Assembly (NCBI GenBank): GCA_945861385.1
Contig: CAMAUI010000006.1
Location: 1-64,000 of the forward strand
DNA: 64,000 bases
Reading direction: 5' to 3'
Source of the DNA: Prosthecobacter debontii
GTDB lineage: Bacteria > Verrucomicrobiota > Verrucomicrobiia > Chthoniobacterales > Chthoniobacteraceae
The position numbers were made by a program, and so were the translations under genes. Below the pieces are notes generated by a model. The model was not told the origin of the DNA, made no database searches, and saw only the letters and a program-made list of their open reading frames with translations. This document shows positions 4,001-36,804 of this stretch, in pieces. Position 1 is the first letter of the stretch; each line of letters opens with the position of its first letter.

Positions 4001-4408
4001 CACCCGCCCCGTGAAGCTCGTGCGCTTCGATGCGAAGACAAGCGACTTTCCATCCGGCCACCAGCCCACGAGCCGGTCGCCCGCGCCATGGTAAGTCACG
4101 CGGCGCGGCTCGCCCCCGCTGACCGGGATCACGTAAATATCATCGCTGCCCTCATAGTTGCCCGTGAACGCAAGCTCGCGGCCATCCGGCGAAAACCGCG
4201 GCCATGATTCCTCGCCGCGCGGAGAACTCAGGCGCATTGCCGTGCCGCCCTCTTTTGCGACGATCCAAATGTCGCCCGCATACACAAAGGCGATCTGCCT
4301 GTCCGAGACAGAGGGCATGCGCATCATCCCGGCATGGAGCGGCCCGTCGGCGGCAGACGCAGGAATCGCGGCGGCGAGGATCAGGGCAAGAACGCAGGAA
4401 ACTTTCAT
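1034..4408 (-). CDS. Tricorn-like protease (S41 family, beta-propeller plus PDZ)
   Basis: The protein has 1124 aa, close to the usual 1050-1100 of tricorn homologues. It opens with a Sec signal peptide (MKVSCVLALILAAAIPASA), so it is periplasmic or extracellular rather than cytosolic as in archaea. Residues about 25-520 are WD40/TolB-like propeller blades with repeated SPDGK and SPDSRK motifs. A Lys/Glu/Pro-rich insert of about 80 residues follows, then the tricorn core, a PDZ region and the peptidase domain. Visible catalytic elements are the SSH motif (ELNSSHTY), the nucleophile region RWSGSGGD and the terminal GHGVEPDI. Family knowledge predicts cleavage of peptides, with the propeller acting as a substrate gate. 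The ATG at 4408 places the signal peptide correctly. Confidence 0.9.
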   Translation of the reverse strand: MKVSCVLALILAAAIPASAADGPLHAGMMRMPSVSDRQIAFVYAGDIWIVAKEGGTAMRLSSPRGEESWPRFSPDGRELAFTGNYEGSDDIYVIPVSGGEPRRVTYHGAGDRLVGWWPDGKSLVFASKRTSFTGRVSQFFRINAMGGLAERLPIPYGEFGAISPDGKTFAYTMTDTDRASWKRYRGGMAPDVWLFHLDTGAAENVTENDACDSQPMWAGNGRVYFLSDRDAKKRANLWLYDIAAKTKRQVTRFTDFDVRYPSVGPGDVVFENGGRLFLMDLATEQTREVKVNVVTDKATLRPRLENVSARIATSSLSPSGKRVLFEARGDIFSVPAEEGITRNITASPGVAERYPAWSPDGKSIAYFSDRSGEYELTLLPADGKGAEEKLTNLGPGWRYQPQWSPDSRKLVFIDSAMRIWMHDRDTKQTAQIDRQLWHYHSDLHNFSVSWSGDSRWIAYAGDTESQQDAIILYDTKERKRHQVTSAFYSDDLPVFDPAGNYLYYRSRRIFQAHYSDFDFTWAYVNAHALVCVPLRNDMPSPLAPKNDEEPKKEDDKKDGPPKSTDPAKKPEDSKKSGTANSLDGPKQPKIEGESAGTKQETKPPEKKEEKKPEVKDVRIDLDGFEKRAVVLPVGSGRLDQLGALPGKVIFRWPPRKGSNATTSPLSLWDIETRAEKQIVDNVTGYELSADRKKLLLSGGGWSITDAKEAAGTGKTVTVNLEMTVDPAAEWRQMFDDAWRIQRDFFYDPHLHMVAWQEMRERYGGMLTACVTRHDLNYVLGELLGELNSSHTYRSGGDLDDGPRRNTGYLGCDFELKDGIFRIARILDVAPWDTGVRSPLREPGVGIKPGDYLLAVNGRKPDPTQEPYLAFAGMSGKAVLLTVNDKPLPEGAREVLVKTLPTESALRHYAWIEDNRRRVDEATAGRCGYLYVPSTTLAGQTELYRMWRAQAHKDALIIDERWNSGGQLPDRFIELLDRPIRAHWGVRDGLDWTTPYIPTAQVKVMLANRWSGSGGDCLPWLFQQAKLGPVIGTRTWGGLIGMTGCPPLVDGGTVTVPTFSIYDRTGKWIIEGHGVEPDIAVMDDPAQLAKGADPQLTRAIAEIKAALAKTPLIRPPRPSYNDRTR

Positions 4409-21707: not shown

Positions 21708-22724
21708 TCACAGCAGCCGCACCCCGGTGCCATTCTCATCCGGGAAAACCGCCCTGCCTTTTTCCAGGCGAACGCCCGCTGCGATATCCTGCGCGATCAG
21801 CATCGCGCCATCCATGTCCGCATGGTCGAGGAGCGGCAGCAGTTGCGCGAGCGCGCTGATGCCGACCGAGCTTTCGTTCATGCAGCCGCCCATCACGCGC
21901 AGCCCGAGTTCGCGCGCCCGCGAGATCATGCGCCTCGCCGGGGTGAGCCCGCCAGCCTTGGTAAGCTTGATGTTGATGCCGTGAAAATATCCCGCGCATC
22001 GCCCGACATCCTCCTCCACGCGGCAGCTCTCGTCGGCAAACACGGGCAGCGCACACTCGCGGTGGACGCGCTGCATTCCGGCCCAGTCATCAGCGCGCAG
22101 CGGTTGCTCGATGAGTTCCACGCCCAGCCGCGCAAGCTCCGGCGCGAAGGCGATGGTCTGCTCCGCGCTCCACGCGGTGTTCGCATCAATGCGGAAGACT
22201 GCATCCGTATGCCTGCGCAGTTCCCGCACGATCGCGAGATCATCCGGGGTGCCGAGTTTGATTTTGTAAACCGGCCACCCGTCGAACTCGCGCATCTTCG
22301 CGAGCATCGTCTCCACCGCATCAATCCCGATCGTGTAATTGCTCGGCGGCAGGTCGCGCAATTCGAGCCCCCACAGCCGCCAAACCGGCGCGCCGCGCAG
22401 CCTGCCCCACAAATCGTGGGCCGCCTCATCGAGCGCGCAGAGTGCGAAGCGATTGCTCCCGAGCACCGCCACTATGCGCTCCCACAGGGCCGCGGGATCA
22501 TCGAGTGTCTCGCGCCCGATCACCGGGCGTGCCGCTTCGAGCGCAGCCCGCACCGCATCGGCCGCGGATTCCGCGTATGCGCGCGACGCCGCGGCCTCGC
22601 CGTAGCCGGACATCCCATCCTGCCGGAGTTCGACGAGCAGATTGTGCTGCACGGTCGTGGTGCCATGCGTGATGGTGAACGCATGCCGCATCGGGAGGCG
22701 AAGATCGCGGAGGTGGAGTTCCAT
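21708..22724 (-). CDS. L-Ala-D/L-Glu-type dipeptide epimerase (enolase superfamily)
   Basis: The protein has about 338 aa. The N-terminal capping domain (MELHLRDLRLPMRHAFTITHG) leads into a barrel with the KIKLG lysine motif (VYKIKLGTPDD), metal-binding acids in RIDANTAW, IEQPL and ADESC, and the second lysine in INIKLTKAGGL. These are the residues of muconate-lactonising-subgroup dipeptide epimerases used in peptidoglycan peptide recycling. The exact substrate is inferred. The ATG at 22724 is the conserved start. The open frame to 22961 overlaps the exoprotein gene and is not coding. About 145 bp of its 5' end plus upstream flank is duplicated at 31571-31775. Confidence 0.88.
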   Translation of the reverse strand: MELHLRDLRLPMRHAFTITHGTTTVQHNLLVELRQDGMSGYGEAAASRAYAESAADAVRAALEAARPVIGRETLDDPAALWERIVAVLGSNRFALCALDEAAHDLWGRLRGAPVWRLWGLELRDLPPSNYTIGIDAVETMLAKMREFDGWPVYKIKLGTPDDLAIVRELRRHTDAVFRIDANTAWSAEQTIAFAPELARLGVELIEQPLRADDWAGMQRVHRECALPVFADESCRVEEDVGRCAGYFHGINIKLTKAGGLTPARRMISRARELGLRVMGGCMNESSVGISALAQLLPLLDHADMDGAMLIAQDIAAGVRLEKGRAVFPDENGTGVRLL

Positions 22725-22784
22725 GCCCAGCCCACGAAATGCGGAGCGGCCCGCTGTTGGCGAGAACCAATGTCGCCAGCCACC
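22579..22784. repeat. Parental copy of the duplicated epimerase 5' region
   Basis: From GCGCGCGACGCCGCGG at 22579 to about 22784, the sequence matches 31571-31775 with scattered substitutions, through the start codon and about 55 bp of upstream DNA. This copy belongs to the intact epimerase gene. The ends are read by eye and are approximate. Confidence 0.8.
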
Positions 22785-22834
22785 TGCCAGCCTGCGAGGC
22801 GTGCCCGGACGTCGAACCCCACGGCTCCTTTTTC

Positions 22835-25744
22835 TCAACGCTCCGCTGGTATTTTTGACGGTGCCGGGATGGCGGTGGCTGCTTCGTCGGGGGCGCTCGC
22901 GACACCGCCGCGGCCCACGAGGAGGAAGGTGCTCACGTCGCCCTCGAGACGCATGGCGCATCGCTCGGCGAGGTTGGTTTTCGGGCTGACGAAGGAGCTG
23001 CCGAGCGTGAGCAGGGCGCCGCTGATGTCGCCTTGCAGTGTCTCGATTCGGACGGTGCCCTGGACGCTGGCTTCGCTGGAGGCGGTGACGGCGCTGTCGC
23101 TGGCGAGGAAAACGCCGGTGATGATGTTGATGTTGCCGCCCCTGCCGAGGATGGCGTTCGCGGAGATGCGGCTGTCCTCGAGGAGGACGAATTGCGGGTC
23201 AATGAACACGTCGCCGCCGTTGAGGCCGGCCTCGGCGAGGACGGTCGCGAGCCGCAGCGAAATCGTCTCGGGGGCGATGAGCGCGATGCGCCCGGCGTTG
23301 CCCTGCGTGGCGCTGACGGTGATGCTGCTTCCGGTGATGAAAATGCCGCTGCCCGATGCAACCTCGACTGAGCCGGCGTCGCTGATGGCGGAGGTGCTGC
23401 TGATGAAGCTGCCGCTGTCGAGCGTGAGCGGGGCGTCCACGGCGACATCCACGCTGCCGGCGACGCCGGAACCGGTGGATGAAGCGACGATGAAGGCGCC
23501 GTTTTCCAATGCGAGATCATGGGCGCGGACGACGACGCTGCCGCCGCGGCCCGGCCCACTGGTGTCGGCGCGAATTCCAGCGCCATCGGCGAGGGTGAGG
23601 CTGCCAAATTCCGCGCGGATGCCGCCGCCTGCGCCGGGCTGGGTGAGGGACGTGCTCGTGGCCGTGATGCCGGTGAAATCGCCGCCGCCCTTCCCGGAAA
23701 AGAAGCCGTCGCGCGCAATGACGAGGACGTTGCCGCTCGCCCCGCCGCCATTGGTGGCCGCGGAGATGCGCCCGTCGTCGAACCCGCGGATGGTATCGGC
23801 AAAGACGCTGACATTGCCGCCACGCCCGCCGGGTCCTTCCTGCAAACTCTCGGAGACGATCCGGCTGTAAGCCGGGGCTTTGCCGGCTGCGCCGGGATAC
23901 ACGCCGGCGAGCGTGATGCTCCGTGCGTGAACGGTGACGTCGCCGCCCGGTTTGTCGCCTTCGGTGCTCGCGGAAACCTGCCCGCCACCGCGAATGTGGA
24001 TTTGATCCGCCGTCACGAAAACATCGCCGCCGGGGCCGGTGCCGATGCCCGTGGAGTCCGCGGCGATGCCGGTGTTGGTCGGCGAGGAGCGCCGGTCAAT
24101 TTCGATGACATCCGCGCGCACCGTGGTGTTGCCGCCCGCGCCCGCGCCGGTGGTCTTTGTGGAAATGAGGCCGCCATTTTCGATCCGCAGCAGCCCGGCG
24201 TTGACGTTCACGTTCCCTCCGCGCCCGGGACTGCCGCCTCCGCCTGCAATGCCGAGGCTGTCCGCCCGGATGCTCGTCTCGGTTTCCGCTCCGTTGGCGG
24301 AGATGAAAATGCTGTTCGCGGTGACATTGACGCTGCCGCCGGGCCCTTTGCCGCCGCTGTCGGCGGAGATGGAGCCGCCTTGTGTGATGCGGATCGCCTG
24401 CGCGTTCACTGTCACTCCCCTGGAGGAATCCGCCTCGCTGCTGAGGGCGCGGGAGCTGATCCCCGTGAAGCTCTCCGCCCCCGTTTTACTCCCGATGATT
24501 TCAATGGTGTCCGCCCTTGCATCCACATGACCGCCGTGGCCCAGGCCGTTCACGCCGGCTGCATCGAGCTGAACGTCGGAACGGATGCTCGACCGGTCGG
24601 TGATGACGAGCCTGCCAGCCCGGATGACGACATCGCCGGCGTGCGATGTGGGGGTGCTGCCGTCCACGAAGCTGCCCAGGTCACTGTTGGAATTGATGAC
24701 GATATTGCGCGCACTGGCATGGACTCGGCCCGCTGTGGTGGCGTTGTTGGTGGTGGTTTGAAAGCTGGCGTTTCCCTTGAGCACGAGGCTGTTCTTGAGC
24801 CGCAAGTTCATCGCCCCTCCCCGTTCGGTGCCTTTGGTCAGTGATTTCACCGTCGCATTCTTCGCAGTGAGCCTGCCTGCCCGGATGGTGACTGCGCCGC
24901 CCTTGCTTCCGCTGGCGTCAATCGTCGCGCGGTTCCCGTCGTCGAGGCCGTACATCGTCACATCGCCCATCTTCACCGGCTGCCTGCCGCGCATCGCGGA
25001 GCCATCGGGTTTCAGTTCGCCCTTCGATGCCGCGCTGGCGATGACGACGTCGCCGGCTTTCGTGACGATGGATACAGCCTGGCCGTTGGCTTCATCCACG
25101 CCGCCAAGAATAATCTTTCCGCCGATGGCGGAAAAGCCGCCCTTTACCGCCGGGTTGCCGGGTGTGCCGGATGTGCCGGTCGTCGTGGAGCCCTGAATGT
25201 GGATGGCCTGTGGCGCACTGAGGAATCCAAAGGCGCTGACGGGGGCGCTGGTCAGTTGATCCATTGCGGGGTTTGTGACATCGAAACGCCCGCCATCCTC
25301 CAGCTTCACATAATCCGCCGTGGTCACGGTGAACGCGCCTTTCACGTCAATTTCCGCGCTTTGCCCGAACATGACGCCCCTCGGGTTGATGAGGTAAAAA
25401 TTCGCGCCCGGGATGTCCGATTGGATTTTGCCGTTGATGATGGATTTTTCGCCGGTGACGCGGGCGAGGACGTTTGCGATGCCGGACGGGCCGGTGAAAG
25501 CGGCGGTTTCGCCGGCAGCGAGGTTCAGTTTTTCAAAACTGTGGAATAGATTCGCTCCCACCTGGCTGCTGCCGCCGAGTGTGTGCGGGAGCGAAAACTT
25601 TCCGCCGACTGCCTGGACGGTGCCGCCGCCCGGCAGCACCACTTCCGCGCGGGCGGAGAATGACGTGAGGATCAGACCGGCAAACAGGCAGTGATGCCAG
25701 CCCCGGTCAATGCCTGCGCCGCCTGCATGGCGGGATCGGGTCAT
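22835..25744 (-). CDS. Filamentous-haemagglutinin-like exoprotein with TPS domain
   Basis: The protein has 969 aa from the ATG at 25744, which overlaps the upstream gene's stop as ATGA. A Sec signal (CLFAGLILTSFSARA) precedes a TPS/haemagglutination-activity domain with NLFHSFEKLNL, FTGPSGIANVLARVTG and ANFYLINPRGVMFG. A long right-handed beta-helix made of irregular GG-x-V/I repeats follows to about residue 900. The end has a cyanobacterial-FHA-like motif (ERCAMRLEG, then FLLVGRGG). Such proteins are normally exported across the outer membrane by a TpsB/Omp85 partner, which is not encoded in this window. An adhesin or surface-matrix role is likely. Confidence 0.85.
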   Translation of the reverse strand: MTRSRHAGGAGIDRGWHHCLFAGLILTSFSARAEVVLPGGGTVQAVGGKFSLPHTLGGSSQVGANLFHSFEKLNLAAGETAAFTGPSGIANVLARVTGEKSIINGKIQSDIPGANFYLINPRGVMFGQSAEIDVKGAFTVTTADYVKLEDGGRFDVTNPAMDQLTSAPVSAFGFLSAPQAIHIQGSTTTGTSGTPGNPAVKGGFSAIGGKIILGGVDEANGQAVSIVTKAGDVVIASAASKGELKPDGSAMRGRQPVKMGDVTMYGLDDGNRATIDASGSKGGAVTIRAGRLTAKNATVKSLTKGTERGGAMNLRLKNSLVLKGNASFQTTTNNATTAGRVHASARNIVINSNSDLGSFVDGSTPTSHAGDVVIRAGRLVITDRSSIRSDVQLDAAGVNGLGHGGHVDARADTIEIIGSKTGAESFTGISSRALSSEADSSRGVTVNAQAIRITQGGSISADSGGKGPGGSVNVTANSIFISANGAETETSIRADSLGIAGGGGSPGRGGNVNVNAGLLRIENGGLISTKTTGAGAGGNTTVRADVIEIDRRSSPTNTGIAADSTGIGTGPGGDVFVTADQIHIRGGGQVSASTEGDKPGGDVTVHARSITLAGVYPGAAGKAPAYSRIVSESLQEGPGGRGGNVSVFADTIRGFDDGRISAATNGGGASGNVLVIARDGFFSGKGGGDFTGITATSTSLTQPGAGGGIRAEFGSLTLADGAGIRADTSGPGRGGSVVVRAHDLALENGAFIVASSTGSGVAGSVDVAVDAPLTLDSGSFISSTSAISDAGSVEVASGSGIFITGSSITVSATQGNAGRIALIAPETISLRLATVLAEAGLNGGDVFIDPQFVLLEDSRISANAILGRGGNINIITGVFLASDSAVTASSEASVQGTVRIETLQGDISGALLTLGSSFVSPKTNLAERCAMRLEGDVSTFLLVGRGGVASAPDEAATAIPAPSKIPAER

Positions 25745-28700
25745 ATCACTCGAAATTGGATGCCGACCGCAGTCTGCGGGAGGCTCGAAACCAAGACGGT
25801 GGAGCCGTTCACCTTGATGCTCTTGAAGGTGGCGCCTTGGAAACAATTGCCGGCCATGGCGACTTGGTTGGTGAGTACGATGGCGTCAATGTACGCCTTG
25901 CCCGCTGGCAGCGATGAAAGCACGCCGGCAGCCGCGACGTCGTCGGCGTTGCCCCAGATGTGGTCGGTGCCGGGGTCTATGCCCGCGGAGACAGTGGAGT
26001 TGGATATCACACCCGCGATGGTGACAGTTCCGATCCGTGCGTCGCGGTAGTAAGTGTCCTGATCCAGCGGATCGGGTGGCACTACGCTGTCAATCAGCCC
26101 ATCCGCACCGATGCTCACGCCGGCGAGGAACCTGGCGTTCGTGACAGTGCCAGCGGTGATTTTGATTTTGCCTATGCCGATATTGAGGTCGGCGTTGGTG
26201 ATGTCGTAAGCCGCGAAATCCGAATTGGTGACGGCGAGATTCGAGGTGATTTGCGCAAAGGACAAAGCCTGGAAGTACACGCCATCCACACCGATGCTGC
26301 CGGAATAATTGATCCCTGCCGTCATGGAGATGCCTGCTGCGGTGGTTCGCGCGAAGATGTCGTAGTTCTGGATGCCGCCGTGATCCTTCAATGAGGGCAC
26401 CGTGCTGGGGATTTTGATGAGGCCGATTGCCCCCTGCTTGGCGACGATGTTCTTGTGGTCGTTGTGGCCGTAGTCATCACCGTTCAAGTCCGGCACTCCG
26501 GGTGAAGTCTCGATGAGTGCCATCGTCACGCCATTGTTAATGAGGTCTCCGCCAACGGGGACGAGATCGTAATCCAGGTCGGACGGAAGCGAACTGCTGG
26601 GGGTCTTGCTGCCATCGAAACTGTGCGCGGAGATAGCGCCGATCGAATTGGCAAACACCGACGACTTGAAGGTTCCTTTCACTTTGATGCCCTTAATGTG
26701 CAGGGCCGCGTCGAGATGGATGTCCATGGTGCCCGTGACGGTGATGGTGCCGACGTTGCCGTTCACGATCACATGCTGGCCCGCCCAACTGCTGCCGGAG
26801 ACAGTCATGTTTCCCAAGTTGGCGTAGGTCACAGTACCCACTTCGTAACGATCCACCTCGAACGAGACCTGGCAAAGCCCCTTGCGCAGGCGGAAGCTAT
26901 CGATGCTCTGCGTGGTCTTGATAAGTCCGGGGCCGGCCCATGAGCGGACGACGACATCCCCAAGGCCGCCGCCGCCGCTCGGGGTGAGAGGATCGGTGCC
27001 CGTCACATCAATCGTCAGTCCGCCGGTGCCGAGGACGTCGCGGATGCGGATTTCCGGTTTGTTGTTGTAGGTGTCGAGGTAGGCGAGGCCCTTCCCTATT
27101 TCAAAGATCCCGTACTGGTTCACGTCGCTCAGGATGAGCTTCGTGACGCTGCCGAGGATTTCCACGTCGGGCAGCGCGTCGTTGACTCCATCACCGAGTT
27201 TCACTTTCCCGTTAAGCGTGATGGTGCCGAGCTGGCTGTCAGGATCGGAGCTGACGATGCGGTTCACCGTCGTGGTGCCGATTTTCGGGCCTTTCAAATA
27301 GAGGTCCACCGGCCCGGCGGTGCTGATGATCTCGATGGAATCAATCACCCGGCCACCGCCGCCGGTGCTGACATTGACGATGATATCGCCCGCGCCTTCA
27401 GCCCTGACAGTCGTCCCTCCCCCCGCGGAAAAGGTGACGCCGCTATTGAGCATCGTACCCACGGTGGTCACGGCCCCCCGGACGAGCGTGCCGATGCCGG
27501 CTTTCCGCAGGGTGCCGGGGCCGTCCACTGTGCCGGTGAGCGTGAGCGTGGTGGCGGCGTCCACATCCACGGTGCCGGTCGCGCTGTTGACGGTGAAGGT
27601 GCGCGCGGTGCTGAATGTCGCGGTGGTGTGGAGCCTGCCCGCGGTGCTGTCGAAGACGACGTCGTTCGCCGCGGTGCCGAGCGCGCCGTTCGCGCCGATG
27701 GCGAGGCGGCCGGTGAGGCTGATGCCGTCGGCGTCGGTGAAAGTATTCGCCGCGTTCGCAAGCGTGAACGGCGCGGTGCCCGCGACGACGAGGTCGCCGG
27801 TGCCGCTGAGCAGGCCGGTGTAATTGCCGCCGCTGACGGCAAGCGTGTTGCCCGCGAGCGCGATGCCGGCGGTGCCGCTGAGTGATGCGAATGTGAGGTC
27901 GCCACCCGCGGGATCAACCGTCGCATCGAGCGTCGCCGCTGCGCCGAAAACCAAGTTCGTGGCCACCGCGCGCGTGATGGGCGCGCTCACGGTGAGGGGG
28001 CCGCTGTTCTGGTCGCCGAAGACGAGCGCGCCCGCGGTCACTTGGTCCAACTCCGCATCCGTCAGCCCGAGCACGCCTGCGGAGTCCGCGCCGCCGAGAT
28101 TGATCAGCGTTCCGTTTGTCTGCTGTCGCAGGGTGACTGAGCTACTGCCGTTCGCCGACACGGGGCCGGCGAAATTCATGTTGTCTGCGATGAGCGTGAG
28201 ATTGCCGCCATTGGTCGCGGTCGAGATGCTCACCCCGGCGTCTTCTACCTGGATGCCGTTATTCGTCCCTCCGCCAGTCCCGCCGGTGCCCGTGACCGTC
28301 AGTGCGCCGCCGCCAGAGGTGATGATGCCTCCGCTGCCGCCCGCGAGGCTCACGCCGTAGTGGAAGCCCCCGGAGCCGGTCCCGCCCGTGCCCGTCACCG
28401 TCAGCGTGCCGGCTCCGCCTGCGGAGATGGTCCCATTCTGGTAGATCCCGACGCCGAAGGCCGCGAACGCCGCCCCGGTTCCACCGCCAATGCCTGTCAC
28501 GCTCACGTTGCCGCCGCTCGAATTGATCGTCCCGCCCACTTGCACATGAACGCCCGATGGGAACTGCCCGGCGGTCGAACCACTGCCCGTTCCCATCACC
28601 GTCACGGTCCCGGTCCCGCCCGCTGAGAGCAAGGCGCCCGCTCCATTCACATACACTCCGTAAGCGTTGTTGCCGGCCCCCGTGGACGCGGATGTGCCGG

Positions 28701-31338
28701 TGATCTGGACATTCGCGCCGCCCGAACTGATCGTCGAGCCGCTGCCGTCCACCGCTACGCCAAAATTAAATTCTCCCGTGGACGCCCCGCCCCCGCCCGT
28801 CACCGTCATCGTGCCCGTCGTCCCGCCGAGAATATCGCCACCGGTCCGCACATGCACGCCGACCTGAGTGCCGCCCGCATCACCCGCCCGGCCCGTCACC
28901 GAAACCACCCCCGTCCCCGTCGCCTGCACTAGCCCCGCGTTCACATCCACGCCGATGAAATTCCCCGCCGTCGTCCCCGCCGCATTCGCGGAAAGCGTCA
29001 GGTTTCCGTTTTGCACCACGAGGCTCGATCCGCTCGCGAACGTGATGTTGCGGCTGACATCGAAAGTCGCCGCGCCCGCGCCGCTGAGCGTCAGCGCGGC
29101 ACCCGCGCCGACGGTGATCGCATCCTCGTCACCCGCGCCCGCATCGTCACTGAGATTCACGTCGAGATTTTCGCCGGGCGCAAAAGTGAGGGGGCCGGTG
29201 AACTGCACAAGGTCATCGCCCGCGTCGCCATTGATGGTGAGCGATGCGCCAAACGCGGGATTCAGCGAGCTGACGGTGATCGAGTCCACACCCGCGCCGG
29301 CGTTCACCGTGAGCTGAGTGCCAGGCGCCGCGAATCTCGCAAGGTGCGGGTTTCCGCCGAAGTTGCCGTCGAGCCGCAGCCCGACGCCGGCGTCGTCCGC
29401 GAGGATGATCGCCTCATTTGCCGCCGGGTAGGTGAACGAACGCTCAAGGGCGATGAGCGTGTTCAGCGTCTCCTCGACGCCCGAGTAGCTGATGAGCGCG
29501 CCGTCAATGTCCACCACGCCGATGTCGTGCGTGGTGAAAGTGTGCGTCACATTCGCGAAGGCCACGCCGCCACCGCCCTGCTCGATCAGCAGCCGGTAGG
29601 CCACGCCGCCACCGCCCTGCTCGATCAGCAGCCGGTCAGCGGAGGGAGTCGCCGGGTTGCCGCCGGAGAAATCAATCCCGCCCGCCGGCACCGGGCTGCC
29701 GCCGCCGAAATCCACGACCAGCGTGTCCGACCCGCCGAGCGCGTCGAAAAACAGCGTGCCCGTGATATTCACGAGAGGCACTTCGACGGTGAACGCATCC
29801 ACCTGCGTCATCCCCGGCCCCGCGGCGATCCGGTGGGAGGGATCGAACACGCTCAGGATGCCGCCAGGCATGCGCTTGAGCGTGATCGTATCATCGCTCG
29901 CGCCGCCGTTCACATCGCGGATGACAAGATCGCCGCCGATGAGATTCGCCGACGTCTCAATGGCGGGCACGCCCGCCTGCATGAGGACGACATCGTTGCT
30001 CGCCGAGCCGCCCGCGTAGGTGATGTTGAAAGTGACACCGTTGATCGTCACCGGCGCGCCCTCCGAAAGACCGTTGAAAGTTCCCACCACCATGTCGTTC
30101 CCGCTGTTATCAACGAGGATGATCTGCTGCCCCGGATTGCTGGTGATCCCGCCCGTGGTCACGAGCGTCGCATCTCCCAGCGACACTGTGCCGGTGACGA
30201 AAAGCTGATCGTGCCCCGTACCCGGCGCCGCGTTGTTCACGCGGGCGTTGAAAGTGGAATTCGACCCGAGGCTGAGATCGCCAGTGCCCAGCTTGCCGAT
30301 TCCGTTCACGCCCACGCCAGGCCCGATGATGCCGTTCGAGAGCACGGTAACCGCCCCGGCGATATCGCCATTGCCCTCGATCGTCGCCCCGGCGCTCACA
30401 GTCACGGGGCTTGAGCCCGTGAAATCGCCGGTCAGCGTCAGGACGCCCGCATTCACCATCGTCGAGCCTCTGTGCGAGGACGCTCCGGCCAGCGTCAGAT
30501 TTCCATTCCCCGCCTTCACGAGATTCAAGTCCCCCGCCGTGTCCTGAAACCGCACGGCCGAAGTGCCATTTAAGTCGTTGTTGAGCGTCAGCGTCGCCGC
30601 CACACCATTGTTGAAATTCTCCACCGTGCCCGTCCCGATGACGGCCTTGAGCGTCTGCGCGAAGCCATTCATGTCCAGCGACCCCGCCGCCGCGAGGCTC
30701 ACCGTCAAGCCTGCCGCCAGCGTGTCATGCGCGCCCAGCCGCAGCACGCCGTTGCCGATGGTCGCCGCGCCCGTGAACGTATTCGCCCCGCTCAACGTCA
30801 GCACCGCCGTGCCATTCTTCGTGAACCCGGTGTTGCTCATCGCCCCGCCCACGACAAGCTCCGCACTCGTCACATCGAAAACGCTCGCCGCCAGAGTGAG
30901 ATCCACATCCACCGTCGAGGGCGATGTGCCCTGCTGCCGCACATCCACCCCCGGATTGTCGAGCAGGATGCTGTTTCCCGTGACGGTGTAATTGTTCGCC
31001 CCATTCGCGTTGAAAATCAGCGAATAGCTCGTCCCCGCCACCGTGTCGTTGTCCAGCACGCCAAAGCGCGCCGAAGTGTCGTCGAAAATCAGCGTGTCCC
31101 CATCCGCAGGTGCCGCCGCCGAGCCGGTGCCGTTATCAATCCAGTTCTGTGCAACGCTCCACGTACTGTTCAGCACGCCCTTCCACACCAGCGTCGCCGG
31201 GGCGATGCGCGCCTCGAGCAGCTCAATGCCGCACGCGTGCCGCTTGAAAATGCCCTGCCGCCAGCCTGTCGCCGGCGGGACTTTTCGCTTTTCCATGAAG
31301 TGCGGAGATTGTTGCTGGGATCCGGGATTTTGTTTCAT
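25741..31338 (-). CDS. Giant PATR-type beta-helix surface protein, paralogue 1
   Basis: The protein has 1865 aa from the ATG at 31338. The start is fixed by alignment with the paralogue at 36558 (both begin MKQNP). Residues 1-50 are basic, lack a hydrophobic signal and carry LLEARIAPA at 40-48. VWKGVLNSTWSVAQNW follows, typical of the first autotransporter-associated beta-strand repeat, with NTFTGAATIGNGVLRLG further on. The middle consists of Gly/Thr/Val beta-helix repeats. The last 600 residues are less repetitive and end ...IQFRVI. No barrel, PEP-CTERM or LPXTG signal is seen. The open frame upstream to 31728 is an epimerase gene fragment, not part of this protein. A surface structural or adhesive role is inferred. 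Confidence 0.8.
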   Translation of the reverse strand: MKQNPGSQQQSPHFMEKRKVPPATGWRQGIFKRHACGIELLEARIAPATLVWKGVLNSTWSVAQNWIDNGTGSAAAPADGDTLIFDDTSARFGVLDNDTVAGTSYSLIFNANGANNYTVTGNSILLDNPGVDVRQQGTSPSTVDVDLTLAASVFDVTSAELVVGGAMSNTGFTKNGTAVLTLSGANTFTGAATIGNGVLRLGAHDTLAAGLTVSLAAAGSLDMNGFAQTLKAVIGTGTVENFNNGVAATLTLNNDLNGTSAVRFQDTAGDLNLVKAGNGNLTLAGASSHRGSTMVNAGVLTLTGDFTGSSPVTVSAGATIEGNGDIAGAVTVLSNGIIGPGVGVNGIGKLGTGDLSLGSNSTFNARVNNAAPGTGHDQLFVTGTVSLGDATLVTTGGITSNPGQQIILVDNSGNDMVVGTFNGLSEGAPVTINGVTFNITYAGGSASNDVVLMQAGVPAIETSANLIGGDLVIRDVNGGASDDTITLKRMPGGILSVFDPSHRIAAGPGMTQVDAFTVEVPLVNITGTLFFDALGGSDTLVVDFGGGSPVPAGGIDFSGGNPATPSADRLLIEQGGGGVAYRLLIEQGGGGVAFANVTHTFTTHDIGVVDIDGALISYSGVEETLNTLIALERSFTYPAANEAIILADDAGVGLRLDGNFGGNPHLARFAAPGTQLTVNAGAGVDSITVSSLNPAFGASLTINGDAGDDLVQFTGPLTFAPGENLDVNLSDDAGAGDEDAITVGAGAALTLSGAGAATFDVSRNITFASGSSLVVQNGNLTLSANAAGTTAGNFIGVDVNAGLVQATGTGVVSVTGRAGDAGGTQVGVHVRTGGDILGGTTGTMTVTGGGGASTGEFNFGVAVDGSGSTISSGGANVQITGTSASTGAGNNAYGVYVNGAGALLSAGGTGTVTVMGTGSGSTAGQFPSGVHVQVGGTINSSGGNVSVTGIGGGTGAAFAAFGVGIYQNGTISAGGAGTLTVTGTGGTGSGGFHYGVSLAGGSGGIITSGGGALTVTGTGGTGGGTNNGIQVEDAGVSISTATNGGNLTLIADNMNFAGPVSANGSSSVTLRQQTNGTLINLGGADSAGVLGLTDAELDQVTAGALVFGDQNSGPLTVSAPITRAVATNLVFGAAATLDATVDPAGGDLTFASLSGTAGIALAGNTLAVSGGNYTGLLSGTGDLVVAGTAPFTLANAANTFTDADGISLTGRLAIGANGALGTAANDVVFDSTAGRLHTTATFSTARTFTVNSATGTVDVDAATTLTLTGTVDGPGTLRKAGIGTLVRGAVTTVGTMLNSGVTFSAGGGTTVRAEGAGDIIVNVSTGGGGRVIDSIEIISTAGPVDLYLKGPKIGTTTVNRIVSSDPDSQLGTITLNGKVKLGDGVNDALPDVEILGSVTKLILSDVNQYGIFEIGKGLAYLDTYNNKPEIRIRDVLGTGGLTIDVTGTDPLTPSGGGGLGDVVVRSWAGPGLIKTTQSIDSFRLRKGLCQVSFEVDRYEVGTVTYANLGNMTVSGSSWAGQHVIVNGNVGTITVTGTMDIHLDAALHIKGIKVKGTFKSSVFANSIGAISAHSFDGSKTPSSSLPSDLDYDLVPVGGDLINNGVTMALIETSPGVPDLNGDDYGHNDHKNIVAKQGAIGLIKIPSTVPSLKDHGGIQNYDIFARTTAAGISMTAGINYSGSIGVDGVYFQALSFAQITSNLAVTNSDFAAYDITNADLNIGIGKIKITAGTVTNARFLAGVSIGADGLIDSVVPPDPLDQDTYYRDARIGTVTIAGVISNSTVSAGIDPGTDHIWGNADDVAAAGVLSSLPAGKAYIDAIVLTNQVAMAGNCFQGATFKSIKVNGSTVLVSSLPQTAVGIQFRVI
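28230..28900 (-). repeat. Gly-rich beta-helix repeat block in paralogue 1
   Basis: Units of roughly 40-45 residues follow the pattern GV-V---G-I-SGG-G--TVTGTGG. About six are seen, for example GVHVRTGGDILGGTTG, GVYVNGAGALLSAGG and GVHVQVGGTINSSGG. They are diverged at DNA level. A similar block is present in paralogue 2. Confidence 0.65.
29561..29638 (-). repeat. 39-bp tandem duplication in paralogue 1
   Basis: A 39-bp unit beginning GCCACGCCGCCACCGCCCTG is repeated back to back (29561-29599 and 29600-29638), with only the last bases different. It adds 13 residues in frame, so RLLIEQGGGGVA is read twice. It appears to be a recent slippage or duplication event. Confidence 0.85.
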
Positions 31339-31488
31339 GGCGTAAATGTTGGTTGGGAATTCGATTTTGCGGAGCACTCGGAAATTGCGAAGGAATGCCT
31401 GTACTCGGCGGTGGGTTTTCCGCACTTGTTCAGGGTCTTCTTTTGGCAACGCCTGCCAAGCTACCCCCGGATGCACCGCTGGCAACCA

Positions 31489-31494
31489 ATTATA
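31489..31494 (-). promoter_or_regulatory. Possible -10 element upstream of PATR paralogue 1
   Basis: On the minus strand the bases read TATAAT followed by TGGTTGCCAGCGG, about 150 bp before the ATG at 31338. The homologous site before paralogue 2 reads AGTAAT followed by TGATTGCCAGCGG. The conserved context supports a promoter, but no good -35 is visible. Confidence 0.35.
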
Positions 31495-31542
31495 CATTTT
31501 TAACAGCCCCGCCGCCTGCGCGGGCATCGTCGCGCCTTTCCC

Positions 31543-31568
31543 GCAAGCTGGCAGCTTGCGCCACACAC
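31543..31568. repeat. REP-like palindromic repeat, copy 2
   Basis: GCAAGCT-GGC-AGCTTGC forms a perfect 7-bp stem with 3-nt loop, followed by GCCACACACA. It lies immediately next to the end of the duplicated epimerase fragment, which begins at 31571. It is therefore a likely recombination junction. Confidence 0.65.
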
Positions 31569-31570
31569 AG

Positions 31571-31716
31571 GCGCGCGACGCCGCGGCCTCTCCGTAGCCG
31601 GACATTCCATCCTGCCGGAGTTCGACGAACAGGTTGTGCTGCACGGTCGTGGTTCCATGCGTGATGGTGAACGCATGCCGCATCGGGAGGCGGAGATCGC
31701 GGTGGTGGAGTTCCAT
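31571..31716 (-). pseudogene. Truncated 5' fragment of the dipeptide epimerase gene
   Basis: Read from the ATG at 31716, the frame gives MELHHRDLRLPMRHAFTITH and continues through VELRQDGMSGYGEAAASRA. It is nearly identical to the first 48 residues of the intact epimerase at 22724. It stops matching at 31571, three bases from a REP-like palindrome. About 55-60 bp of upstream DNA (31717-31775) is also duplicated. The frame happens to stay open into the giant gene, but nothing suggests a functional fusion. Confidence 0.85.
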
Positions 31717-31788
31717 GCCCTGCCGCACAAAATGCGGGCCGGCCCATGCTTGGCGAGAAGCAATATCCCGGTGGAACCGGCGCGAGCC

Positions 31789-34700
31789 TCAGACGATGCG
31801 GAAGCGAATATCGTCAGCGGTTCCTGTCTGCCCGGTTGCGACATCCTTCGGGAACCCCGCGAGCAGGATGGCGAGGGCATCAACCTTGATTCCCTTGAAG
31901 CTGGCGGCCTGGATGGTGTTTGAAACGGGATCGTTGGTGGTTTCGCCAAGGACGGTGGCGAGCGCGATGGCATCAATGACTTTGAGCGGCAGGATGGGGA
32001 TCACGCCAGTGAGGGCGGCAATATCGTCTGCATTTCCCCAGATGAGATCAGTGCCGGGCGTGAAGCCGGCCGAGATGACCGTCTGTGCCATCGCGCCCTT
32101 GATTGTGATTCTGCCGATGGTAGCGGCGAGCGTGTAGGTATCGGCGACCGCACCAGCGAGCACGCCATCGCCGCCGAGATTCACGCCGGAGAGGAATTTC
32201 GCGTTCGTCGCTCCGGAGAAGTTGATTTTGTCGCCGATGGAAATCTTGCCGATGCGATCCCGTGCAGCGAAGACCGAGTCCACGATGGGCAGGTTGGACG
32301 TGATGGATAGGATCTGGGCGGCATCGAAGGTAACATCGTCAACGCCGGGTCCGGACAGCGCCTTCACAGCGATGCCACCCGCAAGCGTTGCCGCGTAGAT
32401 GTCGTAGTGGGCGATGCCACCGGATTTAGTTTTCAACGTGCCCAGAGATCCGTTCAGGGCGACGATGTTGTGGCGGTTTTCACTCCCGTAGTCGCCGGCA
32501 TCCGTGGGCTTGGTTCCATTGAACAGAAAGGCGGTGATCGAGCCGATGGACTGCGCGACAAGCGACCCCTTGAACTCGCCCTTTACATTCACATTCTTGA
32601 TGGAAGCCGCCGAGGTGATGTTGCCGAGGAAGTCGCTGCCGACGGAGATCGTGCCGACTTCCGTCGCGTCCGGTTTTGTAAATGTGGCCGTTCCCGCGAA
32701 GGTGCCGGTCTTGACGGTGAACTTGGTGAAGCTGCCGGCGGTGAAGGTCGCGCCCGCGAGAAAGCCCACTGCGCTGAACGACCCGACGTTGCCTTCGATC
32801 TCGTTGCCACTGCTGCCCCATGAGCCATTTTGGATCACCATTTTTCCGACATTCGCGGTGGTGAGTTCGCCCCTGTGATCAGCATCCACCTCGAAGACCA
32901 CGTTGCAGTCTCCCGTGCGAAGCGTGAAACTCCCGATGCCCTGCGTGGTGCGGATGGTGCCTGCGCCAATCCAACTGGAGATGACGACCTTGCCGAGTCC
33001 GCCGCCGCCGGTTCCAGCAGGCTGCCCGTCGCCTGTCACATCAATGATCACACCCGGACCTGTGATGGACTTGATCACGACATCGGGGTGGTTGTTGTAA
33101 GTATCCGGTGTGGTTTCGTCGCCAAGGTTGTCGTAGGTGAGCCCGTAGCCGAGGCGGATGATCGTATTCGGCATGACCGTATCCACGGTGAGTTTGCCGA
33201 TCTTCCCAGCGATGTTGATATCGGGCACGTCGTCAGCCACTCCGTCCCCGAGGATCACGCCCTTTCTCAATGTGATCGAAGCGATCTCCGGCTCCGGGTC
33301 CGTGCTGGTGATGCTCTCAACGACCAGGGTTGCACCGGCGGTTGTGGGGCCTTTGATCTCGATCTCCGTGGCCGCGGTGGTGCCGGTCAATGCGATCTCC
33401 TCGATCTTTTTGCCACCCAGGCCGTCGGAGACGATCGTGATGACAGCGCTGCCCTCGCCCTCGAGTGCGAATTTTGCGGCACCCACGGCGACCGGGCCGG
33501 TCTCCGTATTGACCACGGTTGCTCCGGTAAAATTCTCGCCAAAAGCGAGGCTGCCAGCGCCGGTCTGCGTGATCACGCCGGTGCCGTCCACGGTGCCAGT
33601 CAATTTCAAAGTGCCTGCGGCGATGTCTATGTTCGTATCCACCGTGCGGGTGAAATGCCGCGTGGTGATGAAGCCGTTGGTAACCGCGAGATTTCCACCG
33701 CTGAAGACGAGGCTGTTGCCGAGGTCACCGAGCATTCCATTCGAGGCCGCTGTGACACCGGGGAATCCAGCGTCCAAACCGATCTTCAGTATGCCAGCCT
33801 CGACGGTGATGGCGCTGGCACTGCCGAAAGTGTTAAGGCGACTGCCGAGTGTGAGGGTGTTGGCTGAGATTTTTGTGAAGGTGCCCGCTCCGCTCACGAC
33901 ACCCGCGAATATGATACCACCACCTTCGGTATTGATGGGCGGGCGAACGATGCCTGGTGCTCGGACATCACGTCCCGCGAATATGATACCACCACCTTCG
34001 GTATTGATGGTGTTGTTCCCGATGAGTGTGAGGCTGCCAGTGAAAATGCCATCCCCTCCCCCACCGGACCTCAGCACGAGCGCACCGGGAATCGTAAGCC
34101 CCCCAAACACCACGGATTCGCCCGCACCACCGCGAAAGGTGATTGCATTGGACATGGTCACTGCCTGGCCCTCGATGGTATCCACCCAGAGTGCTGCACC
34201 AGGAGCGATGTCAATCGGGCCCGTTCCAAAGCCGCCGGATGCGAAGTTGACAATCGCACCTTCGCTTACGGAAACCCCGGCGATAGTGACGAGCGGCGAG
34301 GGATCATTTCCGTGGCTCAGGATTCCCGGCCCGGTCTTGGTGAGGGTGCGGCCAGGGCCGATGAGATTCCCAGTCCAAAAGACACTCGTATTGGCGCCAA
34401 CTTGAACGGTGGAATTGGCGTTGAGAGTGACGTCTCCCCCCGATTCAGAGCCGCCAGTATTGTAAAAAATGCTCCCTCCGTTCAGGACAAGCGGGGAAAC
34501 CGGCAGGGAACCGGATGCCGCCACCTCGATCGTGCCCGCGCCGATGGTGGTCGTGCCTCCGTAGCTATTCGAAGCCGAGAGAATGAGCGTGCCGACACCC
34601 AGCTTCGTCAAACTGTCTGCACTCAGCGGGTCACTTTGCGTGATCAAGCCGGCGCTCTCCACGGTGAGCAAATTATTGATCGAAATCGGGCCGAGATTAA

Positions 34701-36558
34701 AACCGCTGTCGTCGCGCAGGGAAACGGAATTTGCGGCTTCTACGGTGACGGTTTCGAAGGCATTCCCCGCATTCGTGAGGGTCACATTCCCCATGGTCTC
34801 CTGGGAAGGAAGGATCGAGAGCGTTCCGGAAACAGTCAGCACGCCACCGAGAGCGACAATGTTCCCGCTGTGTATTGTCAGGTTTTTGCCCACCGCCAGG
34901 GCAATGCCTCCTAAGCCGCTGACATCGCCCTCACTGTTGAGCGAGAACTGGCTGCCGTGTGTGATCTCCGCACTCACCGTGAGGGAGCCGGTGTTGTTGC
35001 CGCCGATTTGCAATATACCGGCAGTCACTTGATCCAACTCGGCATCCGTCAGGCCCAATGTAAGTGGATCCCCGCTCAACACATCCGCTCCCCCGAGATC
35101 GATCAGCGTGCCCGGAGTGCGGGTTGCAATGGTCGTTTGACCGGGGCCGGAGCTGATGCTCCCGCTGGGAATGTCGAGGCTGTCGGCAGTAATGATAATA
35201 CCGGCGCCGCCACCCGAGGAAATCGTCCCGCCACTCTCGATTCGCACCGCGAAGTTGTCAGCAGTGGCGATACCGGTGACACTGACAGAGCCGCCACCCG
35301 ATGTGATACTGCCACCGTTGATGACATCCACGCCGAGATTGGCCGTTCCAGCGCCCGCGGTGCCCGTCACCGTTACCGAGCCTGTCCCGCCGGATGTCAC
35401 CACGCTCGTGTCGCTCACATAAAAACCATAGCATCCGTTGCCTGATGCGGTGCCATCCACCGTGACCGCACCATTTCCCCCCGAGGTGATCACGCTGTTG
35501 ATGGCCACATACACGCCGATGGAACTGTCGTCGTTCCCAATGCCAGTCACCGTCACCGCACCGTCCCCGCCCGAGGTGATCAGCCCATCGCTAATCACCG
35601 TCACCCCATAGCCACCGATGCCGGTCACATCCACATTTCCACCGCCCGATGTGACCGAGGATCCCACCTCATTCACGATCACTCCGAAGTTGATGGCGTT
35701 CATATTCGGAACACCGCCAGTCCCCTGAATCGTCACGCTGCCAGTCGTCCCGCCGATGATATCTCCGCCGAAAGCCACTTGAACGCCATTCTGAGCGACC
35801 GCGGTGCCATCACCTCCTCTGCCCGAGACCGAAATACTTCCCGCACCCGTGATTTGGATGAGCCCGTTATTAAGGAAGACACCCGAAAAGTCCCCGCTCG
35901 TCGGTATGGCTTGTAAATTGGCGCTCAAGTCCAGATTACCATCCACGGTCGTTAGGCTCGATCCGCCAACGAGCACGATGTTGCGCGCAGTCGTCAGCGA
36001 GATCGCGCCGGTGCCGGTGGCGGAAAGATCGGCAATGGCGCTGGCGAGGCTGATCGTGCCTGTCGCCGTCGTGCTCAGCGTCTTGTCGGTCGCGAGCGCG
36101 ATGCTGTTGTTGAAAGTGACGTCGCCGCTCGTGAGCGTGGTGTCGCCGGACAGCGTGAGATCGCTGCTGAACGCGAGCGTGTCCGCGCCGGTCCCGGTAT
36201 TCACCGTGAGATTTGCCGTCAGCTCTGAAAGTGCGAGGAAGACATCGTTCGCTCCATTTTGCGTGAAGCCACCGCCGGCCGTGATCCCGTTGCTCGCATC
36301 GGTAAAATGCAGGTTTACGCCGATGATCGAAACAGTGAGCGACTCGATCTCCCCAGGTCCACCTTGGTCTCCCAGAATCGTGACACTTCCGGTCTCATCC
36401 AGCATCGCCAGCGAGGCCGGGGCGATGCGGCTTTCGAGCACTTCGATGCCGGACGTGCGCCGGTTGAAGTTGCGATGCCACCTGCCAGTTATCGCCGGGA
36501 CTTTTCGTGCTACCAGAGGGCGAAGGGATTGTTGATGGGGCGCGGGATTCTGTTTCAT
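31789..36558 (-). CDS. Giant PATR-type beta-helix surface protein, paralogue 2
   Basis: The protein has 1589 aa. The N-terminus aligns with paralogue 1 over 50 residues (MKQNPAPHQQS, then VLESRIAPA at exactly 40-48) and has no hydrophobic signal peptide. It contains beta-helix repeats, PATR-like strands (SYGGTTTIGAGTIEV) and a shared block LGLTDAELDQVTAG. The last 500 residues include GFTPGTDLIWGNADDIAA, matched in paralogue 1 by GIDPGTDHIWGNADDVAA, and end ...IRFRIV. No membrane barrel or sorting tail is seen. It is the first gene of the minus-strand exoprotein cluster. Surface localisation is inferred from composition and family. Confidence 0.8.
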   Translation of the reverse strand: MKQNPAPHQQSLRPLVARKVPAITGRWHRNFNRRTSGIEVLESRIAPASLAMLDETGSVTILGDQGGPGEIESLTVSIIGVNLHFTDASNGITAGGGFTQNGANDVFLALSELTANLTVNTGTGADTLAFSSDLTLSGDTTLTSGDVTFNNSIALATDKTLSTTATGTISLASAIADLSATGTGAISLTTARNIVLVGGSSLTTVDGNLDLSANLQAIPTSGDFSGVFLNNGLIQITGAGSISVSGRGGDGTAVAQNGVQVAFGGDIIGGTTGSVTIQGTGGVPNMNAINFGVIVNEVGSSVTSGGGNVDVTGIGGYGVTVISDGLITSGGDGAVTVTGIGNDDSSIGVYVAINSVITSGGNGAVTVDGTASGNGCYGFYVSDTSVVTSGGTGSVTVTGTAGAGTANLGVDVINGGSITSGGGSVSVTGIATADNFAVRIESGGTISSGGGAGIIITADSLDIPSGSISSGPGQTTIATRTPGTLIDLGGADVLSGDPLTLGLTDAELDQVTAGILQIGGNNTGSLTVSAEITHGSQFSLNSEGDVSGLGGIALAVGKNLTIHSGNIVALGGVLTVSGTLSILPSQETMGNVTLTNAGNAFETVTVEAANSVSLRDDSGFNLGPISINNLLTVESAGLITQSDPLSADSLTKLGVGTLILSASNSYGGTTTIGAGTIEVAASGSLPVSPLVLNGGSIFYNTGGSESGGDVTLNANSTVQVGANTSVFWTGNLIGPGRTLTKTGPGILSHGNDPSPLVTIAGVSVSEGAIVNFASGGFGTGPIDIAPGAALWVDTIEGQAVTMSNAITFRGGAGESVVFGGLTIPGALVLRSGGGGDGIFTGSLTLIGNNTINTEGGGIIFAGRDVRAPGIVRPPINTEGGGIIFAGVVSGAGTFTKISANTLTLGSRLNTFGSASAITVEAGILKIGLDAGFPGVTAASNGMLGDLGNSLVFSGGNLAVTNGFITTRHFTRTVDTNIDIAAGTLKLTGTVDGTGVITQTGAGSLAFGENFTGATVVNTETGPVAVGAAKFALEGEGSAVITIVSDGLGGKKIEEIALTGTTAATEIEIKGPTTAGATLVVESITSTDPEPEIASITLRKGVILGDGVADDVPDINIAGKIGKLTVDTVMPNTIIRLGYGLTYDNLGDETTPDTYNNHPDVVIKSITGPGVIIDVTGDGQPAGTGGGGLGKVVISSWIGAGTIRTTQGIGSFTLRTGDCNVVFEVDADHRGELTTANVGKMVIQNGSWGSSGNEIEGNVGSFSAVGFLAGATFTAGSFTKFTVKTGTFAGTATFTKPDATEVGTISVGSDFLGNITSAASIKNVNVKGEFKGSLVAQSIGSITAFLFNGTKPTDAGDYGSENRHNIVALNGSLGTLKTKSGGIAHYDIYAATLAGGIAVKALSGPGVDDVTFDAAQILSITSNLPIVDSVFAARDRIGKISIGDKINFSGATNAKFLSGVNLGGDGVLAGAVADTYTLAATIGRITIKGAMAQTVISAGFTPGTDLIWGNADDIAALTGVIPILPLKVIDAIALATVLGETTNDPVSNTIQAASFKGIKVDALAILLAGFPKDVATGQTGTADDIRFRIV
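33902..34010 (-). repeat. 72-bp in-frame duplication in paralogue 2
   Basis: A 37-bp string beginning CCCGCGAATATGATACCACC occurs at 33902 and again at 33974, exactly 72 bp apart. The duplication adds 24 residues in frame, so INTEGGGIIFAG is read twice. The bases between the copies do not repeat. Confidence 0.85.
35210..35850 (-). repeat. Gly-rich beta-helix repeat block in paralogue 2
   Basis: Five to six units of 30-45 residues follow the pattern G-V-----I-SGG-G-VTVTG, for example SDGLITSGGDGAVTVTGIG, NSVITSGGNGAVTVDGTA and TSVVTSGGTGSVTVTGTA. This corresponds to the block at 28230-28900 in paralogue 1. Confidence 0.65.
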
Positions 36559-36804
36559 GGCGTGGACGATGGTTGGGATTTGTTATTGTGGAACACTCGC
36601 AGGCTCTGAAGGAATGACAGGCTCCGCAGAGGTTTGTCCGCACCTGTTTTGGATATTCTTTCGACCTCGGCTGCCAAACTACCGCCGACCGCACCGCTGG
36701 CAATCAATTACTCGTTACAATCAGCCCTGCCGCGTCGCGGCATCGCGTAGCAGCAAGCTGGCAGCTTGCTCCACACACTCGTGAGCACGTAACTTCCGCG
36801 CGCT
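36559..36804. other. Duplicated 5' flank of PATR paralogue 2
   Basis: There is no gene in this stretch. It aligns over its whole length with 31339-31570, the flank upstream of paralogue 1: both have GGTTGGGA near the start codon, a CCGCAC-TGTT-GG block, TGCCAA(A/G)CTAC, CACCGCTGGCAA and then the same palindrome. It should hold the promoter and a leader of about 150 nt for the giant gene on the minus strand, and the short leader of lpxI on the plus strand. Confidence 0.65.
36752..36775. repeat. REP-like palindromic repeat, copy 3
   Basis: GCAAGCT-GGC-AGCTTGC followed by TCCACACA occupies the same relative position upstream of PATR paralogue 2 as copy 2 does upstream of paralogue 1. It also lies about 30 bp before lpxI. 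Confidence 0.65.

Follow-up and report, generated by a model that had tools for sequence, protein, structure and literature searches.

Novel junctions of tandem duplications and amplifications in E. coli can involve REP elements, in such a way that 22 of 90 sequenced novel junctions lie at REPs, 14 of these being too short for homologous recombination, as described in PMC3161906. In the verrucomicrobium Opitutus terrae, most GTAG-20 elements are REPs with a GTGG head, according to the description in PMC3733652. Tandem duplications can also be generated by transformation, and the merodiploids of this origin in Streptococcus pneumoniae form by homology between repeats and span about 100-900 kb, as reported in PMC3784515. 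We analyzed a window of 64,000 nucleotides from Prosthecobacter debontii (assembly GCA_945861385.1, contig CAMAUI010000006.1, positions 1 to 64,000), in which the 5' end of an enzyme gene is stranded between two giant genes. This fragment is probably the seam of a head-to-tail duplication beside a REP, which would explain the origin of an adjacent pair of giant surface-protein genes in a bacterium represented by a draft genome, and would provide a natural, non-laboratory example of such a joint outside Proteobacteria. The features of the locus are as follows.

21708-22724, minus strand: intact epimerase-like gene of the enolase superfamily, 338 residues
22579-22774, minus strand: B, the counterpart of B' at the intact gene
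22835-25744, minus strand: Tps, exoprotein with a TPS secretion domain (filamentous-haemagglutinin type)
25741-31338, minus strand: G1, giant gene, 1865 residues from the ATG at 31338, N-terminus LEARIAPA, PATR/beta-strand repeats
31188-31568, minus strand: A, 5' end of G1 (~50 codons) with its upstream region
31543-31564, minus strand: REP element at the joint, GTGG head and palindrome, C-G closing pair
31569-31570, no strand: novel joint B'/A, 2 bases
31571-31768, minus strand: B', 5' part of the epimerase-like gene left stranded here, with 48 codons from the ATG at 31716 and ~50 bp upstream
31789-36558, minus strand: G2, giant gene, 1589 residues from the ATG at 36558, N-terminus LESRIAPA, PATR/beta-strand repeat
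36408-36778, minus strand: A', 5' end of G2 (~50 codons) with its upstream region
36753-36774, minus strand: REP element in the corresponding position before G2, closed by an A-T pair

An initial annotation, made from the letters of the window, had noticed that the start of the intact gene recurs at 31716 through residue 48, together with about 55 bp of upstream DNA. Local alignment in a 20-kb self-comparison bears this out, as B' and B are 91.8% identical over 195 columns (E 4.6e-73), covering 48 codons, whose translations begin MELHLRDL in the intact gene and MELHHRDL in the fragment as had been read, and ~50 bp preceding the ATG. Within the coding part (146 bp) there are 7 differences, at codons 5, 8, 21, 28, 30, 37 and 42, and within the upstream part (~50 bp) 7 mismatches and 3 gap columns. 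Five of the seven codon differences are silent, the replacements being L5H and L30F. By comparison with 19 orthologous genes, both replacements and three silent changes appear to be on the B' side, with one of the replacements at a position that is aliphatic in 19/19 orthologs; at codon 28 the intact gene appears to be the changed copy, and codon 8 is assigned to neither side. Since only the first 48 of 338 residues are present, B' presumably makes no enzyme. A genome-wide protein search detected no third copy or other fragment of this gene in the genome, its two further matches being distant family members (28% and 26% identity). The annotated name of dipeptide epimerase agrees with the matches to the Pfam MR_MLE_N/C domains, the only ones to pass score, but no NCBIfam equivalog cut-off was reached, the best being DgcA with 211 of 400 bits, and the curated scores for L-Ala-D/L-Glu (dipeptide) epimerase were not reached either (NF011708, 136 of 343 bits; NF041118, 114 of 500); for the product of 21708-22724 the name is best read as a family guess.

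What adjoins the end of the fragment, at 2 bases, is the edge of a second repeat that the annotation had missed. This repeat, A, is 74% identical over 384 columns to A'. Along the minus strand one reads A'-G2-B'|A-G1-Tps-B-epimerase, that is, two pairs of direct repeats on one strand and in one order, with the inner ends of B' and A 2 bp apart and the outer ends running into unique sequence, A' into the left neighbour and B into the complete epimerase-like gene. The order of both repeat pairs, with inner ends that meet and outer ends that continue, gives this locus the structure of a head-to-tail duplication joint. When positions 31188-31770 were used as a query against the 174 contigs of the same genome (40 matches scored), the only partners were the epimerase-like gene and the 5' region of the other giant, the remaining matches being short and nearly all to a REP.

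The DNA itself shows the two repeat pairs, the order in which they stand, that they are unique in the genome, and a REP next to the joint, and we consider it probable that B' is the seam of a duplication. The duplicated unit would have extended from the REP upstream of a giant surface-protein gene, through the giant gene, to codon 48 of the epimerase-like gene that follows, and this unit would have come to stand twice in tandem, its inner ends meeting at 31569-31570, in such a way that the epimerase-like gene of the left copy was cut after codon 48 and passes directly into the REP and the DNA upstream of the second giant. The duplication scar proposed in the annotation thus appears genuine, with better support than could be offered then, and is a clear but ordinary genome scar. 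It is quite improbable that the joint is an assembly chimera: the source genome is a fragmented draft with REPs repeated dozens of times, but the REP lies wholly on one side, and the joined sequences have no common stretch at the joint that could explain a false join. Nor is B' a misplaced piece of the intact gene, because the copies differ at many positions. The 29-base joint sequence had no match in the viral contigs scanned.

The REP beside the joint is composed of a palindrome core at 31543-31559 and a GTGG head at 31561-31564. The annotation had placed the end of the fragment three bases from the palindrome; it actually lies 11 from the core and 6 from the head. The palindrome, GCAAGCTGCCAGCTTGC with one free central base, has 46 exact cores in the genome, for 0 of the reversed-pattern control, and exact cores are present at both A and A'. 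GTGG is the consensus head across the aligned copies, and the 22-base form has 33 copies in this genome and 0 in 39 other genomes of the family. With a four-base head before a palindrome and many copies, the element appears to be a REP of the GTAG/RAYT type. It resembles the GTAG-superfamily REPs with RAYT described in PMC3733652 in its GTGG head, short palindrome and dozens of copies, and also in having a candidate RAYT-like gene placed between REPs, a likeness to GTAG-20 that holds by description and not letter by letter. This Y1-transposase gene is found on contig C86 (3587-4604, L186), flanked by REP-type palindromes of two loop types: a Y1_Tnp match at 3986-4213, with HVHVLV in its translation, lies between palindromes at 3587-3881 and 4588, a setting also typical of RAYT genes, and gene and palindromes together are probably a REPtron of this genome. 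On the end of another contig (C123, 1-150, L169), five REPs form a 31-bp tandem array, inside which the assembly probably broke.

The REPs of A and A' are unlike in their closing base pair (A-T was counted in 7 of the 46 aligned copies), and they may therefore have been inserted separately. We also weighed a possible second breakpoint at a degenerate REP (22779-22795, 3 mismatches) lying shortly before the intact gene, but discarded it, since 0.47 such matches are expected per 64 kb. As in the E. coli joints, which according to PMC3161906 are mostly too short for homologous recombination, the novel joint is located at or beside a REP, and by this analogy the REP may have helped to form it. The E. 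coli joints described there carry microhomology and are fresh laboratory events placed at REPs, whereas at 31569-31570 no microhomology is visible, the copies have diverged and the joint sits 6 bp outside the element.

The only surprising part of this otherwise ordinary scar is that the ages of its parts disagree. For the epimerase pair the dS is 0.16, against 0.65 over the first 59 codons of the giants and 1.14 over 622 codons from their C-terminal part, in such a way that the giants are near saturation at silent sites and the epimerase copies differ little; at 4-fold sites, differences are found in 4/28 for the epimerase pair vs 91/167 for the giants (Fisher p = 7e-5). The two units do not show the similar divergence that duplication of the whole unit in a simple single event would leave. 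G1 and G2 can be aligned, and the dS of 1.14 vs 0.16, together with the presence of Tps in the right-hand unit only, lowers the case for one simple event, not that for a duplication joint. The annotation had tied the scar to a duplication that carried or created the second giant gene, and the tie is well supported, as B' adjoins a copy of a giant 5' end, the order is head-to-tail and a tree of 10 sequences groups the C-terminal parts of G1 and G2 as sisters (support 100/99; the branch of G1 is long, and the program warns that it may be unsure); a single recent event producing G2 as it now is finds no support in the 4-fold sites. The edges therefore agree with the duplication reading, and further divergence or replacement has affected the interior. 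For this uneven divergence three accounts remain: the giants may have been remodelled later by recombination, B' may have been refreshed by gene conversion, or the two arms may be alleles of different strains.

It is unlikely that the tandem giants are older and that the epimerase piece of ~195 bp was copied between them later, either inserted ectopically or written over an older fragment by gene conversion. This would agree with a silent divergence in the epimerase pair much below that of the C-terminal part of the giants, but a bare insertion leaves unexplained why B' ends 2 bp from the edge of A, and the neutral divergence at the two outer edges is not significantly different, either in noncoding differences (7/49 vs 51/194, p = 0.09) or in N-terminal 4-fold sites (4/28 vs 5/18, p = 0.28).

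The preferred reading, a head-to-tail duplication seam, has a sharper variant that we hold only tentatively. The arms may be diverged alleles of one hypervariable surface-protein locus, the A'-G2-epimerase segment of a related strain having been joined to the resident A-G1-Tps-epimerase by an illegitimate joint beside the REP; our confidence in the two overlaps, as arms from different strains are counted in both. Such an origin would explain the dS of the epimerase pair and a dN/dS of about 0.12 in B', acquired mostly during a history as a working gene, as well as the near-saturated giants. B' has 2 nonsynonymous changes for about 8.5 expected under free drift (P 0.03, a rough value that rests on an assumed site weighting of 0.55 of 107). 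This low count speaks for a long earlier period of service as a working gene, as would follow most naturally from the strain-allele account. Transformation-made tandem duplications are known in pneumococcus, and the merodiploids of PMC3784515 share the route from taken-up DNA to tandem duplication, but in the present case the duplicated unit measures about 5-9 kb and homology is absent at the joint. Against this variant, the counts are small, and both nonsynonymous changes are on the fragment branch, one of them at the invariably aliphatic position mentioned above. The enzyme fragment provides a small built-in clock for measuring the rapid change of the giants; were the arms to come from two strains, the fragment, diverging at housekeeping rate, would date the gap between them and the giants would show the speed of turnover of the locus.

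The frame of B' is open for 233 bp and in frame with G1, a chance of about 3% by shuffles, and ORF callers give, through 31339-31716, a fusion of 1995 residues starting at 31728. That B' is used as a translated N-terminal extension or leader of G1 is very improbable. The open frame and the few nonsynonymous changes in B' would be in line with such a use, but G1 and G2 have the start MKQNP in common at their respective ATGs (31338 and 36558), all three frames are closed in A', so G2 has no comparable extension, and no epimerase-like start was found among related giant genes. As an extension of this kind is absent from G2 and the related giants, we treat the open frame as a coincidence, which could lead gene finders to annotate a false fusion protein. 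Purifying selection on B' as a working peptide was considered and rejected: the signal rests on 2 nonsynonymous vs 5 silent changes, and an earlier life as a working gene would account for it equally well.

The annotation had proposed that a genome with one giant gene and one intact epimerase gene would reveal the ancestral state, and this arrangement was found in no relative searched. G009, the sole congener in which a close ortholog of the epimerase-like gene was found, has an intact copy (63%), with no giant or Tps gene in a 20-kb stretch (filter off); across the 213 genomes searched from the order there is no closer ortholog, only G000 and G009 appearing at E <= 1e-100. Among 47 loci with an epimerase-like gene, no match to G1, G2 or Tps was obtained at E <= 1e-4 (BLAST, low-complexity filter on); these comprise 19 from genomes of relatives, mostly about 4 kb long, and 28 of 80 further loci, only 18 of the 28 having at least 5 kb upstream. 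As the other loci searched have no giant or Tps nearby, the adjacency of these genes to the epimerase-like gene is, as far as sampled, peculiar to this lineage. The joint region is in none of 39 other family genomes, this genome being its only holder among 40. A search of the literature that combined giant genes of Verrucomicrobia with autotransporters or with tandem duplication found no paper. Against the duplication seam there stand, then, the contradicted single clock, Tps in one unit, the lack of microhomology and of an ancestral relative, and the unlike closing pairs of the two REPs.

The first 62 residues of G1 and G2 are 50% identical. The stop codon of G1 is overlapped by the ATG of Tps (ATGA, 25741-25744), and giant genes are again paired with Tps in four congeners (loci L140, L141, L147 and L148), the order varying, with Tps before the giant in G001 and G008 and after it in G002 and G007; because of this overlap and recurrence, giant and Tps may form a working pair. 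A candidate secretion partner for Tps is the POTRA/ShlB-type transporter encoded on contig C65 of the same genome (8754-10814, L144), whose gene adjoins another giant-type gene. Within G1, an exact 39 bp repeat stands in direct tandem (29559-29636), and within G2 an exact 37 bp repeat occurs twice, 72 bp apart (33902-34010), both pointing to recent intragenic slippage. In G002 (contig C27, 143-17470, L142), a relative of G1 and G2 is found as an open frame of 5775 residues that contains numerous internal repeats.
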